From the NCBI RefSeq assembly GCF_900182745.1, contig NZ_FXTY01000006.1, positions 1 through 64,000 on the forward strand: a stretch of DNA of 64,000 nt. Reading direction: 5' to 3'. The DNA comes from Shimia sagamensis (GTDB lineage Bacteria; Pseudomonadota; Alphaproteobacteria; Rhodobacterales; Rhodobacteraceae). Below are positions 1,029-7,580 of the stretch, in pieces. The notes beneath the pieces are model-generated. The model made no database searches. It saw only the letters and a program-made list of their open reading frames with translations, and was not told the origin of the DNA. Within the stretch, counting starts at the first letter, position 1; each line of letters starts with the position of its first letter. The position numbers and the translations under genes are program-made.

Positions 1029-2258
1029 TCAAACTTCCTCCAACCCCTTGAGAGCATCGTCAAAACCCCGAAGCGTTTTGGAATAGAAGCTTGCAATGTC
1101 ATCTCGCATTTTGGCCAAATCGGCTTCCTCGATGCCTTGTTCAAGCATCTTTTCCATTTGCGGCCGGTTCCTCAGAGATTTGGATACTATGCGGCTAAAC
1201 TCGGGAGACAGAGGGCGAACCTGGCTGGGAAGAGCATTGCCTTCTTTGAGGGCCGTAAATACTTTTTGCCTCTCCTGTTGATCACCACGCCCAATGACCA
1301 TTCGAACGGCTAGCGTTCGTTCCGAAACCTCAATTTCGCAGAGAAGAATTCGGTTGGAAGGGGTCCAACCACTCCCAGACTGCATGGATTGAAACCTGTC
1401 CCACTCCGTAACTGCGAGGCGAATGAACCGAGCGTTGGCGGAATCAATTGCGACCGTCAAACCGGCATTGGAGGTCTCCAGGCCTTCATTAATTGATTTG
1501 AGCGTTACTTCCTCAGAAAGGAGTTTTGCGAGCTCTCGAGCTGGGTTTGGTCTTCGGTCTGTAAGGAACTCAAGCGCATTCTTGTGCTTTGCCCAAATTT
1601 TCTCGGCTAAGTCCTCAAGTGCGGGGTCTTCCAAGTACTTTCTCCTGATCATCTGGGTGTAAGATTCGAGCATCATTCGGGCTTTAGGGTCTCCCGATTG
1701 ATTGTTGTTCGCGGATTCTAGGTTCCTCACCAGCGATGAGAAGTTGATACTGATCCAATCGGGATCACTCGCGTCATCATCCCTCAAAGTCATGAAGTAA
1801 AACAGGTGCTTCGCTTGCGGCCAAGTTTCGCGAACAGTGGTTGCGTATCTCTTTAGCTGTCCTGCACTTTCTCGAGCTTCAACTTTGAGTTCGATGGCAA
1901 ATACTAGGTCGTCGCTAGGCTGCAGCCCTGGCAGTCGCAAGAGCAGGTCTATGTTCCGCCACTCTCTCAAGACTTCGATTTCGCCGAGGTCTCGTAAATG
2001 GAGTTGTAGCAATAGTTTGGGCTCTCCGGATGCTGTTACCAGTGTTTCTAGTAACGCTCTGGTGCAAGTATCATCAAAACCGTGTTGACCGCGAGGATTC
2101 ACAACGTTCGCGAGAAAATTCGAATGCCGGATTTCGGTTCGTTCTACCGATAAGGCCTCAAATGGGCAATACACATCCAGTCGTTCACTTAACCTCGCAA
2201 AGTCGGACGACTTCACGATCAAGTTAGACAGTTCAATATCTAAAGGGGTATGTTCCAA
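1029..2258 (-). CDS. PD-(D/E)XK nuclease superfamily protein (PDDEXK_4-like)
   Basis: The 409-aa protein shows the PDDEXK_4 layout. An ERTEIRHSNFLANVVNPRG block lies near the N-terminus. It is followed by RNIDLLL, which supplies the catalytic Asp, then AIELKVEARE, which supplies the E-x-K pair, and then a QLKRY helix. Such proteins are predicted Mg2+-dependent DNA nucleases and are common in defence islands and prophages. I chose the TTG start at 2258 because GGAGGG sits six bases upstream. A longer TTG start at 2279 lies inside the heptamer array and has no clear ribosome site. The C-terminal half (about 200 aa) is helical, charged and unrecognised. It is likely co-transcribed with the 233-aa gene. 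The fold is fairly secure. The target is unknown. Confidence 0.8.
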   Translation of the reverse strand: MEHTPLDIELSNLIVKSSDFARLSERLDVYCPFEALSVERTEIRHSNFLANVVNPRGQHGFDDTCTRALLETLVTASGEPKLLLQLHLRDLGEIEVLREWRNIDLLLRLPGLQPSDDLVFAIELKVEARESAGQLKRYATTVRETWPQAKHLFYFMTLRDDDASDPDWISINFSSLVRNLESANNNQSGDPKARMMLESYTQMIRRKYLEDPALEDLAEKIWAKHKNALEFLTDRRPNPARELAKLLSEEVTLKSINEGLETSNAGLTVAIDSANARFIRLAVTEWDRFQSMQSGSGWTPSNRILLCEIEVSERTLAVRMVIGRGDQQERQKVFTALKEGNALPSQVRPLSPEFSRIVSKSLRNRPQMEKMLEQGIEEADLAKMRDDIASFYSKTLRGFDDALKGLEEV

Positions 2259-2273
2259 ATCTGGCCCTCCACC

Positions 2274-2343
2274 CTTCAACCTTCAACCTTCAACCTTCAA
2301 CCTTCAACCTTCAACCTTCAACCTTCAACCTTCAACCTTCAAC
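2274..2343. repeat. Ten tandem copies of a 7-bp unit (CTTCAAC)
   Basis: Ten uninterrupted perfect CTTCAAC units lie immediately upstream of the nuclease start. On the nuclease strand the unit reads GTTGAAG and brings a TGA into every reading frame within 21 bp, so translation cannot run through the array. Copy-number change would alter promoter or leader spacing, not reading frame. Confidence 0.97.
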
Positions 2344-2916: not shown

Positions 2917-4221
2917 TCACATCGGCAGGCGGATCTGATCCACGATGCCTCGCTTCTGCTGGTCCGAAATGCCCGCGCTGTAGATACCGTAGGTCATCCC
3001 ATTTTCTGAGCGAGCTGACTTGTGGCCAACGATGCTAGCCGTGAAGTGCTCAGGCACACCGGTGCGCTCACATTGGGTCACAAACCACTTACGCGTCGAA
3101 TGAAACACCAGGCCTGGACGCTCAAGTCGCTTCGCCTTTCTCAGAGCTGTGAAGCCCTTGGTCACACGATCAACCGTCAAGTCAGGAAACAGCGGTCCCT
3201 CGCTTGGAAGACTCCGAAACAATTCCTCCAACGCAGGATGCACAGGCACCTCGCGTTCTGCCGCATCCGTCTTTAACAGCCGAAGCTCATTTGGACGCAC
3301 GTGAACAAAGCCACCAAGATTGCCCTTTGAGGTCAGGTCTTCTCTGAGCAGCCCTACCGCCTCACCAGCCCGCATGCCTGAGAGCAGACAGGTCAGCATC
3401 ACGGGTCGCAAAGCATCGTCCTTGGTCGCCAGCAGCTGAACCACTTCCTCATCTGTTGGCACGGCATAAGGCTGTGGTTTGATCTTCTGATCGAACAGCA
3501 CTGTCCTGAAGGGGTTCTGCTCAAGATGTCCCTCATAAACCGCCCAGTCCAGGAACGCGTTGACCTGTGCCCAGATCCTCTTCTGCGTTCGAGTTGTGAT
3601 CCGAGCAGTTCCTTGAACGGAGAAGGCCACCAACTGGTCGAGCGACAACCCTCTGGTCCTCTCCGACTTGCCAATGACCGGTGACAGCTGAGCCACCAGA
3701 CTAAGGAACTCGCGCCCCTCATCTCTGGTCAAACTGCACAGCGATTGGTCGCCATATTTTGAGAGGAACAAGCCCACCGAATACCGCACCGATTTAAACC
3801 CACCGGGCCGAAGCTCATTGGACCTGCGACCTAAGTAGACAGCGCCCTGATCCTTAATCGGGATCTTTTGGCGGGGCCGAACCCGCTCAAAGTTGGAGCG
3901 ATCCTCAAGCTGCCCGGAGGCCTCCAGAGTGGACCGTAGACGATCAAGAGCTGCCCCTGATGCTTCAGCCCAATCAAGGACGTCAGCGGTCTTCTCTGGC
4001 TGAGAGAGGGCTTCTTCCGCACCCGCTCGGACCTGCGAAACAGTCTTCTCATATCGAAGGTTTACCTCCGCTGCCCGTGCGCGAGCGGTGTGGACGGAGT
4101 TGGTCTTAAGGCTTTGTTTCAGGGCTTGTTGACCAAGGACCAGCTCAACGTCCTTAGGCCAGTTACGTCTGAACAACCACGTGTGGCCCTTCAAGTACGC
4201 ATAACGAATTTGAGCAGACAT
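2917..4221 (-). CDS. Tyrosine recombinase (phage-type integrase)
   Basis: This 434-aa site-specific recombinase is expected to integrate and excise the element. The first 60 residues (YLKGHTWLFRRNWPKDV) resemble the N-terminal domain of DUF6538-type integrases. A core-binding SAM-like region follows. The catalytic domain has Arg in LLSGMRAGEAVGLL, then HSTR (H-x-x-R), GHK, and the Tyr nucleophile in the MTYGIY segment. All expected catalytic residues are visible and the length is normal. It is the last gene of a minus-strand operon with the 57-aa and 61-aa genes, 32 bp after the latter. No tRNA attachment site was found. The inverted rather than direct repeats at the island edges do not fit simple integration by this enzyme. 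Confidence 0.93.
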   Translation of the reverse strand: MSAQIRYAYLKGHTWLFRRNWPKDVELVLGQQALKQSLKTNSVHTARARAAEVNLRYEKTVSQVRAGAEEALSQPEKTADVLDWAEASGAALDRLRSTLEASGQLEDRSNFERVRPRQKIPIKDQGAVYLGRRSNELRPGGFKSVRYSVGLFLSKYGDQSLCSLTRDEGREFLSLVAQLSPVIGKSERTRGLSLDQLVAFSVQGTARITTRTQKRIWAQVNAFLDWAVYEGHLEQNPFRTVLFDQKIKPQPYAVPTDEEVVQLLATKDDALRPVMLTCLLSGMRAGEAVGLLREDLTSKGNLGGFVHVRPNELRLLKTDAAEREVPVHPALEELFRSLPSEGPLFPDLTVDRVTKGFTALRKAKRLERPGLVFHSTRKWFVTQCERTGVPEHFTASIVGHKSARSENGMTYGIYSAGISDQQKRGIVDQIRLPM

Positions 4222-4605: not shown

Positions 4606-4803
4606 GGTGTATCTCCTTACGTTGTTTCTATTTTAGATACGCAAGGGACCTCGGTTTATGGCGGCAATACTGCTCTCACCTGACAGTGATGCAGCACAAC
4701 CATTATGGTGCCATTCCGGAGGCCTTAACCTCTCTCGCATACGCATTGACATCTGTCGCAATTTCAAGTTTGAGTTGTTTTACGGCGTGGAGCCTAGGCG
4801 GCG

Positions 4804-6462
4804 GTGCAGCTACCCGGTCTCTTAGAGGCCGATGACGCTCTTTGGGGAAACCCATTGGACGACGGTGGTTCCTCGTTAGAACTACTGGAAACCCTTACTT
4901 TAGGCACTGCCGCCGAAATCATGAGAAAAGAACTTCGAGACGAAATCAAAAGGCTTTGCCGTAAGGCGTTCCAAAAGCAAGAAGCGGAACGCGTAACCGA
5001 GTTAAAGTATCAAAAGAAGTTTACAACTCGCACGGGACTTCCTGCGAGAACCGGTTGGCCGAAGGGGTCGACATATAGCCATCGACATTTTGACCCCAGC
5101 CACTGCGTTAGAAACGCAAATGCTCAGGCAACGGCGATTTGGTCAAAGGTTCTCGACAATAGTTATCAGCCGACTCCGGCTATCTGCTATTCAATCCCAA
5201 AGCCGACTGGCGGACAGCGTGAAATAATGGCATTCTCGATTCCGGATGCCGCACTAGCCAATGTCCTTTTCCGCGCTGCACGCGATAGAAACAGAAAACG
5301 ACTTTCGCCTTTTTCATTTGCCTACCTGCCCGACAGAAACGTGTTTGATGCGATTATTTCTCTGAATCAGTTTGAAGCTGACGGCAAACTGATTGCAGTT
5401 CAAATCGACTTCGAAAAGTACTTTGACTCCATTCCGAAAGGATACCTAGAGGGTCTGATAGACGACAATGCAATTGTTAGTCTGACACCTCATGAGCGCT
5501 ACGTTTTCAAAGCGTTTTTGTCCCATCAGTTCGGGAGTTCTGAGCACTTCTGGTCCAAGGATTTCAAGAGCAGACATCGAGGGACACCTCAAGGCAACTC
5601 AGTCTCTTTGCTATTGGCGAATTTAGCCAACGATCAGTTGGATCGAAAACTAGCAAGGGAAGCCGGGAGGTTTGTGCGCTTTGCGGACGATGTGGTTGCC
5701 TTTTGCGATAGGCATGAGGACGCTGAAAGAATAGCTCGCTGTTTTGAGCGTCATTGTGGCAATAGTGGTCTGAGCATTAATCGAACAAAATCCCCAGGAA
5801 TTACTGCTGTCTCGAGAAATGAACAGGAGATTAAGACGATTGCCGAGTTTAAGTATCTTGGCTATTCTCTTTCAAACGAAGCACTTCGCATCCCGGCCCC
5901 AAAAGTGCGTCAGTACCAGCAAAAATTCTCTAGATTGACACATATCTATTTGATCCACTCGTTGCAGTTTGGGTTCAACTCAAAAAGATGCTCCGCCTCC
6001 GCCGGGTATGACTGGGACCTGCTTGGGCTTATCTCTGAAATCCGCAGGTCCGTGTATGGCGGCCTAGACGAGAGAGATATTCAGGACTTCATTTTGAGAG
6101 GCAAACGTCTGCGCTCGATGCAAGGGCTAATGGGTTTTTATTGCCTGCTTGAAGATCCAGAGCGACTTCGAATACTCGATGGTTGGCTGGTGAACCATAT
6201 TCGCCGCTCAATGGTTTATAGAAATAAGTTGCTTTTGACTAAGTATGGGGCGAGTTGCCCAACCCCTTCCAACAGTGAGCTGATATCAGGAAAGTGGTTA
6301 AACCTTGGGGCATGGGGTAGAGACCCTGATGAAGTAGAGCCACAACTGCCCAGCTTTGTTAGAGGCTGGCGTGCCGCGAGAAAATACTACCTCACTTTTG
6401 GCTTGGAAGGTGTGCAACCGCCAAAATACGGAGACGATTCCTCTTTCAACGCGCTCCCCTAA
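4804..6462 (+). CDS. Stand-alone reverse transcriptase (candidate defence-type RT)
   Basis: The 552-aa protein contains a reverse transcriptase palm. Motif A is IDFEKYFDSI (residues 201-210), followed by GTPQGNSVS (260-268), the FADD catalytic box (293-296), NRTKS and EFKYLGY. The N-terminal region and the 200-residue C-terminal tail (RSMVYRNKLLL) are not maturase X or HNH domains. This argues against a group II intron protein. The retron VTG and NAxxH signatures are also absent. It most resembles the 'unknown group'/DRT reverse transcriptases, several of which protect against phage, but I cannot assign the class. The GTG at 4804 is the first possible start. ATG at 4921 is an alternative. The 198-bp leader (4606-4803) could hold a template RNA, though I saw no convincing fold. 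Confidence 0.85.
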   Translation: MQLPGLLEADDALWGNPLDDGGSSLELLETLTLGTAAEIMRKELRDEIKRLCRKAFQKQEAERVTELKYQKKFTTRTGLPARTGWPKGSTYSHRHFDPSHCVRNANAQATAIWSKVLDNSYQPTPAICYSIPKPTGGQREIMAFSIPDAALANVLFRAARDRNRKRLSPFSFAYLPDRNVFDAIISLNQFEADGKLIAVQIDFEKYFDSIPKGYLEGLIDDNAIVSLTPHERYVFKAFLSHQFGSSEHFWSKDFKSRHRGTPQGNSVSLLLANLANDQLDRKLAREAGRFVRFADDVVAFCDRHEDAERIARCFERHCGNSGLSINRTKSPGITAVSRNEQEIKTIAEFKYLGYSLSNEALRIPAPKVRQYQQKFSRLTHIYLIHSLQFGFNSKRCSASAGYDWDLLGLISEIRRSVYGGLDERDIQDFILRGKRLRSMQGLMGFYCLLEDPERLRILDGWLVNHIRRSMVYRNKLLLTKYGASCPTPSNSELISGKWLNLGAWGRDPDEVEPQLPSFVRGWRAARKYYLTFGLEGVQPPKYGDDSSFNALP

Positions 6463-6618: not shown

Positions 6619-6819
6619 GGGCCACAAAGACAGGCCAAAGTGCCCACGGCTCACTAGCGTTTCGCCCCAGTAGCTGCCCCAGTTTTGGAGTTGGTTCGGG
6701 AAAGCCGATGCGTTTCATCGAGACGCAAGGCTTCCTACCACCCCAGCCACTAATCCGAACATCAATGAACGAAGAGCCCACTCGGTCCCATTGAACAGCT
6801 CTGCCCCCCAAAATGCCCC
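6619..6819 (-). repeat. Right copy of the 201-bp inverted repeat
   Basis: Reverse complement of 8-208, with three mismatches near the outer third. Homology ends sharply at both edges. With the left copy it brackets about 6.4 kb holding the nuclease, recombinase and RT genes. Confidence 0.9.
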
Positions 6820-7158: not shown

Positions 7159-7580
7159 TGGGCAGTGGTGAGCAACCGCATGAAACGTGACCTTGCAATC
7201 TAGGCGCTGGAGGTGGCGATCGCATTCAGGGCACCGCCCAAACGCAGCATTCATCACTCGGATCGCAGTAGCCAATATTGCTCCCGCGATTATCACAGGT
7301 TCCTGCGCCAACATGGGTTCAAGGTATCGATGGCTGGTCATGGCAATTGCTATGATAATGCGGCGATCGAGACGTTCTTCAAGACCATCAAAGCTGAACT
7401 GATCAGGCGACAGTCATGGGACACACGGCGGCAAGCTGAGATGGCCATCTTCGAATACATGGACGGCTTCTACAATCCGCGACGCCGACACTCAGCATTG
7501 GACTGGAAAAGCCCTGTCGCCTTCGAACGGAAAGTGGCCTAAACGAGCAATTGGGGCGGCACAAAAACGGAGCAGGTCCA
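7159..7580 (+). mobile_element. IS3-family transposase remnant with the right end of the element
   Basis: Translation gives WAVVSNRMKRDLAI, a stop (TAG at 7201), then ALEVAIAFRAPPKRSIHHSDRSSQYCS and NCYDNAAIETFFKTIKAEL, ending at 7542. These are the last Asp and Glu of the IS3 DDE domain (OrfB). The 5' two-thirds and OrfA are missing, and the nonsense codon disables what remains. TGGACCTGCTCCG on the minus strand (to 7580) looks like the terminal inverted repeat of IS3 elements. The copy is dead. It marks the right-hand scar between the island and the chromosome. Confidence 0.85.

Follow-up and report, generated by a model that had tools for sequence, protein, structure and literature searches.

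A DRT9-like reverse transcriptase and its upstream structured RNA in a divergent alphaproteobacterial branch

The locus and its reverse transcriptase

Near the left end of the window, by which we mean the whole 64,000-nucleotide stretch of Shimia sagamensis DNA that was analysed, a single reverse transcriptase (RT) of DRT9 fold is preceded by a noncoding RNA (ncRNA) with a long closing helix and a conserved unpaired loop in the place of the DRT9 template. The genes and features are as follows.

1029–2279, reverse strand: PDC-S26 candidate defence nuclease (PDDEXK_4; PADLOC and Pfam scans), a neighbour outside the system
2917–4221, reverse strand: tyrosine recombinase with DUF6538 (Pfam scan), a neighbour outside the system
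4746–4751, forward strand: TTGACA, a conserved −35-like box (comparison of loci)
4784–4914, forward strand: structured ncRNA, spanning hairpin SL1 through the 3′ strand of the closing helix SL2 (alignment A3, RNAalifold, pair counts, single fold)
4921–6462, forward strand: UG28/DRT9-like RT of 513 aa, with an ATG start and a FADD active site (PADLOC Drt9 profile, AlphaFold2 model, PDB matches)

The nuclease, the recombinase and the RT form a block bounded by a 201-bp inverted repeat (8–208 and 6619–6819, 99% complementary), which has one 35-bp match only elsewhere in the genome and whose left copy stands at the contig edge. Since no protein family besides the RT is shared by more than 4 of the 27 loci (ORFs of at least 90 aa, some flanks being short), the RT and the RNA look like the whole system. 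Ten perfect copies of the 7-bp unit CCTTCAA occupy 2273–2345, at the 5′ end of the nuclease ORF, and could vary the region of its translation start. Beside the block, an rve (integrase-core) ORF of 109 aa at 7213–7542 is likely an insertion-sequence remnant. A further defence RT is encoded elsewhere in this genome (L002, contig C11, 664–2403, reverse strand), its best PADLOC match being Drt6, at 490 bits.

An earlier note, made from the letters of the window, had described an open frame at 4804–6462 with intact palm motifs, and DFEKYFDS, GTPQGN and FADD are indeed found there, with an RVT_1 match at E 2.3e-21 in the Pfam scan. The start that it gave, GTG 4804, is rejected. The Drt9 profile match begins at residue 40 of that ORF, which is ATG 4921, where the relatives start too, and an in-frame stop lies at most 35 codons upstream of the RT start in 12 of 17 loci (within 3–6 codons in 6 of those). 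Given these stops, the 39-residue extension of 4804–4920 cannot be a family feature; its sequence is mostly RNA and shows no conservation at the protein level. RT genes whose RNA abuts the start codon thus carry an annotation trap, in which residues predicted as protein (39 in this case) are actually RNA.

The window RT scores 489.5 bits against the PADLOC Drt9 (UG28) profile, over residues 1–504 of the 513-aa form, while the generic RT model gives 109 bits, UG17, the next DRT model, 70, and Drt2 51. All 17 aligned members of the branch described below match the Drt9 profile. A phmmer search with the window protein alone places the E. coli DRT9 chain 9ioa at 1.4e-53, and its group II RT matches begin at 3e-19. 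An AlphaFold2 model, built without templates from 15 sequences (13 rows of the branch and 2 classic viral-contig rows), reaches a pLDDT of 85.7 and has an N-terminal helix at residues 2–38. The six best Foldseek matches of the predicted fold are all DRT9, and in a fold comparison (VIA) DRT9 9vma gives Z 33.2 over 475 aligned residues, while the best group II RT reaches 24.5 and DRT2 18.8. The long N- and C-terminal extensions, previously regarded as unassigned, are accounted for: model residues 1–504 align to DRT9 structures, and the part before residue 1 is the RNA-bearing segment described above.

In the C-terminal tail, a tyrosine within a P-x-Y motif occurs in 11 of 11 branch rows of protein alignment A1. 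Tyr503 is invariant in alignment A5 but not in A1, where the tail aligns differently. We regard Tyr503 as a candidate priming residue; the tail (502–513) has pLDDT below 50, so that placing it at the active site is impossible from the model.

A group II intron RT, or a remnant of one, has in its favour a TIGR04416 score of 122 bits and the second-best fold matches. The curated cut-off of that model is 300 bits, retron models fall far under theirs, and a scan of the window at the Rfam gathering threshold gives no match, so that no group II intron RNA was detected. The window RT moreover stands apart, at 100/100 in a tree of 30 RTs, from four outgroup RTs of group II type, of which 2 are annotated as group II and 2 are unannotated viral-contig sequences, one on a very long branch. 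The absence of maturase and retron signatures that had been noticed earlier is thus borne out, and the clustering with group II intron RTs that would have refuted the earlier reading is not seen. Group II intron or retron identity is rejected, and we give the group II reading next to no credence. As this tree contains neither DRT2 nor DRT10 RTs, the class assignment relative to these two rests on the PADLOC and fold scores.

The alphaproteobacterial branch

By its sequence the RT is UG28/Drt9-related and belongs to a divergent alphaproteobacterial branch. Genome contigs yielded 18 loci in one scan, 51–77% identical and each alphaproteobacterial according to its title; the branch RT shares 27–30% identity with classic DRT9 (alignment A1). 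When Drt9 matches are counted at E 1e-40, with the window's own genome included where drawn and with overlapping draws, they occur in 9 of 325 genomes of the family, 6 of 390 of the order, 2 of 385 of the class and 5 of 398 of the phylum; in the gammaproteobacterial-type order centred on G915, 3 of 300 genomes have one.

The tree comprises 17 branch RTs, 7 classic RTs, the intermediates L028 and L033, and the four outgroup RTs. Support for the group of 7 classic rows is 100/100. A split with weak support (66/96) has the 17 branch rows on one of its sides, and L028 and L033 pair at 97/93 and are placed on the classic side (93/93). UG17 RTs sought as an outgroup in 120 genomes gave none, in a search in which the controls likewise matched nowhere; no relative turned up in viral contigs scanned with a classic RT and with L033.

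Alignment A3 consists of 17 distinct RNAs, and 18 loops were counted. L042, which has only the 3′ part of its RNA, is outside A3 with its loop counted; L007/L060 and L015/L058, whose template half is missing, are not among the loops; and L003 and L019 have no upstream sequence. Because their lengths are equal, several contigs were judged to be a single one present in two collections (L004=L030=L062, L005=L029, L009=L027, L013=L061, L020=L059, L007=L060, L015=L058, L003=L064, L017=L066). Four pairs of viral contigs were likewise judged identical (L021=L040, L022=L041, L023=L043, L024=L045), and L008, L021 and L023 are near-identical. Two RTs are frameshifted: L016 was kept out of the protein alignment and the tree, and L018 was used from after the shift.

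A few members deserve separate mention. L015 (4902–5035) and L007 (4906–5115), the two without a template half, come from two related Rhodobacterales MAGs; the gap reaches the RT N-terminus and is a deletion or an assembly artefact. Intermediate UG28 RTs of Rhodobacterales are found with L033 (4641–4829), which lies on a Thioclava plasmid and overlaps a SLATT gene, and with L065 (reverse strand, about 1095–1203), whose RT has an internal stop. In L054 (G1286:C1), the match to a classic DRT9 RT is split in two, with about 860 bp between the parts, and a U5 loop lies upstream.

Literature searches, whose scope did not extend to supplements, where an earlier description is possible, gave no report of the branch RNA or its loop. 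Song et al. (Science 2025) reportedly describe poly(A)-rich cDNA, and their paper may hold a prior description. The word alphaproteobacteria is absent from the main texts of PMC12483538 and PMC12632851.

The upstream RNA

The RNA is composed of the following elements.

4784–4794, forward strand: SL1, a small hairpin (single folds, RNAalifold)
4797–4807, forward strand: 5′ strand of the closing helix SL2 (RNAalifold, pair counts, single fold)
4815–4831, forward strand: hairpin SL3, in which all 6 counted pairs have two-sided changes in the family (pair counts)
4836–4861, forward strand: SL4, a variable hairpin outside the covariation counts (single folds)
4863–4887, forward strand: hairpin SL5 (pair counts, single fold)
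4888–4903, forward strand: unpaired loop GAAACCCUUACUUUAG, which stands where DRT9 has its template loop, with UUU at 4899–4901 and not U4 (fold and loop alignment; putative template role by analogy with published SenDRT9)
4904–4914, forward strand: 3′ strand of SL2, ending 6 nt ahead of the RT start codon (single fold, comparison of loci)

Single-sequence folds of the relatives are mostly alike, with SL1, a long SL2, SL3, a variable SL4, SL5, the unpaired loop and the closing strand. For the 17 distinct sequences the RNAalifold consensus has 26 pairs, and 18 of these show two-sided change. In the pair counts, 94.5% of cells pair, and the 61 cells with two-sided change compare with 16.4 in shuffles and 5–15 in slid structures, a comparison in which the counted structure is favoured over the slid versions because it was derived from the same sequences. 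None of 500 shuffles reaches the observed two-sided count, although kinship among the sequences can inflate this test. The alternating pair types of SL3 (GC, CG, AU, UA) are hard to explain without conserved pairing.

A leader RNA had been proposed in the spacer 4606–4803, with covariation across homologues as the way to find it. The covariation is there and so is the RNA, but its place is 4784–4914, and only its first 20 nt (4784–4803) fall in that spacer. An RNA inside the spacer is rejected: the single-fold z against shuffles is −3.66 for 4780–4920, −1.45 for 4606–4746 and −0.27 for 4650–4779, and the upstream DNA of relatives has, among the alignment parts listed, a conserved block adjoining the start codon. 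The wider suggestion of an anti-phage-type RT with a partner RNA stands as to the UG/DRT class and the adjacent structured RNA, although the family is a known one and the RNA lies elsewhere than supposed.

In 16 of 17 loci TTGAC precedes SL1 by 36–39 nt; L017, the exception, has TTGAT. A covariance model of the branch RNA, R1, makes 26 strong matches in 44 sources, the majority being sequences that it was trained on, or duplicates. When viral contigs were scanned for the pattern without use of the RT, 26 stretches emerged; R1 confirmed 4 of these, all previously known and lying in four contigs that carry the RT.

The distance from the end of SL2 to the start codon is 6 nt in the window and in L017 and 5 nt in L014, which leaves no room for a ribosome-binding site outside the helix. 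It could be argued, then, that the structure is conserved chiefly as a cis-acting leader that controls translation of the RT mRNA and not as a template bound by the RT. In the other 14 of 17 loci, however, the gap is 16–27 nt, and the stem order and the place of the loop resemble those of the DRT9 RNA, which the account of SenDRT9 proves to be scaffold and template (PMC12483538). Both roles are possible for one RNA, and we find a mainly regulatory leader improbable. In the window's sub-group, RNA folding or RT binding may nevertheless control translation of the RT.

The loop and the DNA it may template

In DRT9, as PMC12483538 describes it, the ncRNA is both scaffold and template, a U4 tract templates poly(dA), to which the toxicity is attributed, and C-terminal tyrosines prime. 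In the SenDRT9 loop, U123–126 lie about 8 Å from the active site, U4 is called universally conserved, and defence is abolished by deletion of U124 or by replacement of U4 with C4, G4 or A4 (PMC12483538).

The classic loops agree with this description: they read CUUA-[C/A/U]-UUUU, with U4 or U5 in 7 of 7. The branch loops read C-U-[G 11, U 7]-A-C-U-[C 13, U 4, A 1]-U-[A 7, C 7, U 4], and U4 occurs in 0 of 18. Their middle is UCU in 13 of 18, UUU in 4 (the window among them) and UAU in 1; runs of at least four U's stand elsewhere in 5 of the 18 sequences, never in the loop at the template place. In two classic loops, L034 and L032, a 6-nt direct repeat was seen (UUACUU twice and UUAAUU twice) that exceeds those of shuffled letters in length (0.0046 and 0.0066, uncorrected for the 16 loops tested). 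The intermediate loops UUAGAUUA (L033) and ACAUACAU (L065) have direct repeats of different sequences, not longer than chance.

R1 finds no match up to E 10 in classic RNAs, L028, L033 or L065, and a model of the classic RNAs, R2, finds none in the branch RNAs; R1 is small and R2, with 4 base pairs only, very weak. As the models do not cross-match, the case for homology between branch and classic RNAs is built on the order of the stems, the position of the RNA and the CU-x-A motif common to both. The published DRT9 covariance model was seeded with the 100 proteins nearest SenDRT9 and finally covered 201 systems after clustering at 85% identity (PMC12483538), a figure not directly comparable with the 438 homologues of the published UG28 tree (PMC12483538). 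Since neither R1 nor R2, both small, finds the other group of RNAs, we infer that the window's branch probably fell outside the published model.

We consider it highly probable that the locus is a two-part UG28 (DRT9-like) antiphage system, in which an RT of DRT9 fold and its upstream ncRNA act together and DNA is copied from the loop of that RNA. It is most likely an abortive-infection system making protein-primed single-stranded DNA. The RNA and the RT would be transcribed from one promoter near 4746, and the RNA, as in DRT9, would fold on the RT as scaffold and template. Upon infection, the RT would prime DNA on a C-terminal tyrosine, perhaps Tyr503, and copy the loop repeatedly, and the long single-stranded DNA so made would halt the infected cell. 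As the window loop has UUU within CCCUUACUUUA, its DNA should be A-rich, being either poly(dA), by slippage on the three U's, or a short repeat (TAAG, for example), should CUU realign.

The first of these products is that of an ordinary DRT9. The window would then make poly(dA) as SenDRT9 does, three U's being enough and the loop differences immaterial, and it is in agreement with this that the RT profile and fold are those of DRT9 and that UUU is retained in the window and altogether in 4 of 18 branch loops. The loss of SenDRT9 defence upon removal of a single U or replacement of the tract (PMC12483538) speaks against it, as do the 13 UCU loops and the one UAU loop. We give this reading nearly an even chance for the window. 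Pure poly(dA) would not be expected from the 14 of 18 branch loops in which a C or an A stands between the U's.

The second product would be a short tandem repeat made by realignment, in the A-B-A′ manner of DRT10, for example (GA)n templated by CUCU or a 4-nt unit templated by CU-[U/G]A-CU. All 18 branch loops have a CU..CU arrangement of period 4 and a C at position 5, where classic loops have C, A or U, and A and A′ of DRT10 can be as short as 2 nt according to PMC12632851. However, CUUACU is found also in 3 of 7 classic loops, and the classic systems that have been studied make poly(dA); the UG17 profile gives the window RT 70 bits only; and when repeats of the A-B-A′ type were sought in the branch loops, the longest were no longer than in shuffled letters, so that the short-repeat form is without statistical support. 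Realignment of this kind is, in our estimation, rather unlikely.

Tentatively, and at somewhat less than even chance, we propose that the branch makes no poly(dA) and that CCCU[U/G]ACU[U/C/A]U directs a different DNA, A-rich or of short repeats, that varies from member to member. For the window itself, poly(dA) and a different DNA have similar odds. If the proposal is true, DRT9-type immunity is independent of a homopolymer, and the branch combines DRT9 anatomy with DRT10-like chemistry. An RT branch whose covarying RNA resembles that of DRT9 in stem order and has no U4 leaves two possibilities: three U's, or interrupted ones, are enough, or the immune effect needs no homopolymer. The natural variants UUU, UCU and UAU offer a ready-made experiment on the DNA that such RTs can write.

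Comparison with known systems

With group II intron RTs (GsI-IIC, 6ar1) the window RT has the RT core in common (Z 24.5); it differs in having no intron RNA beside it, in scoring below the maturase cut-off and in standing separate in the tree. DRT2 (UG2) likewise joins an RT to an upstream ncRNA, but the fold and profile scores (Z 18.8 against 33.2; Drt2 51 bits) set the window RT apart, and the loop of the window RNA is too short for a template of about 120 nt. DRT10 (UG17), with ncRNA-templated, protein-primed synthesis of repeats, offers one possible reading of the window loop, although the RT scores 70 bits with the UG17 profile and 489.5 with Drt9. No SLATT protein, the partner in DRT10, was found among five neighbouring proteins scanned with Pfam (four of them also with PADLOC and NCBIfam).

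The closest relative is DRT9 (SenDRT9 and E. coli DRT9; PDB 9nlv, 9vma, 9ioa). The system characterised in SenDRT9 is marked by poly(dA) synthesis, a hexamer of RT and RNA, and abortive infection. The RT profile and the fold with its long N-terminal helix are common to both, the active site being YADD in DRT9 and FADD in the window; the window RT also has a tyrosine in the tail, a candidate counterpart of the priming tyrosine. The RNAs are alike in their position upstream, SL1, the long closing helix, SL3–SL5 and the CU-x-A before the closing strand; unlike that of DRT9, the branch RNA has no U4, its loop is close to the closing helix, and no terminator-like stem separates RNA and RT. Because U4, published as universal, was looked for and is absent, we do not file the locus as a poly(dA)-making DRT9; it is filed as a DRT9-like variant branch that most likely follows the same general scheme as DRT9.
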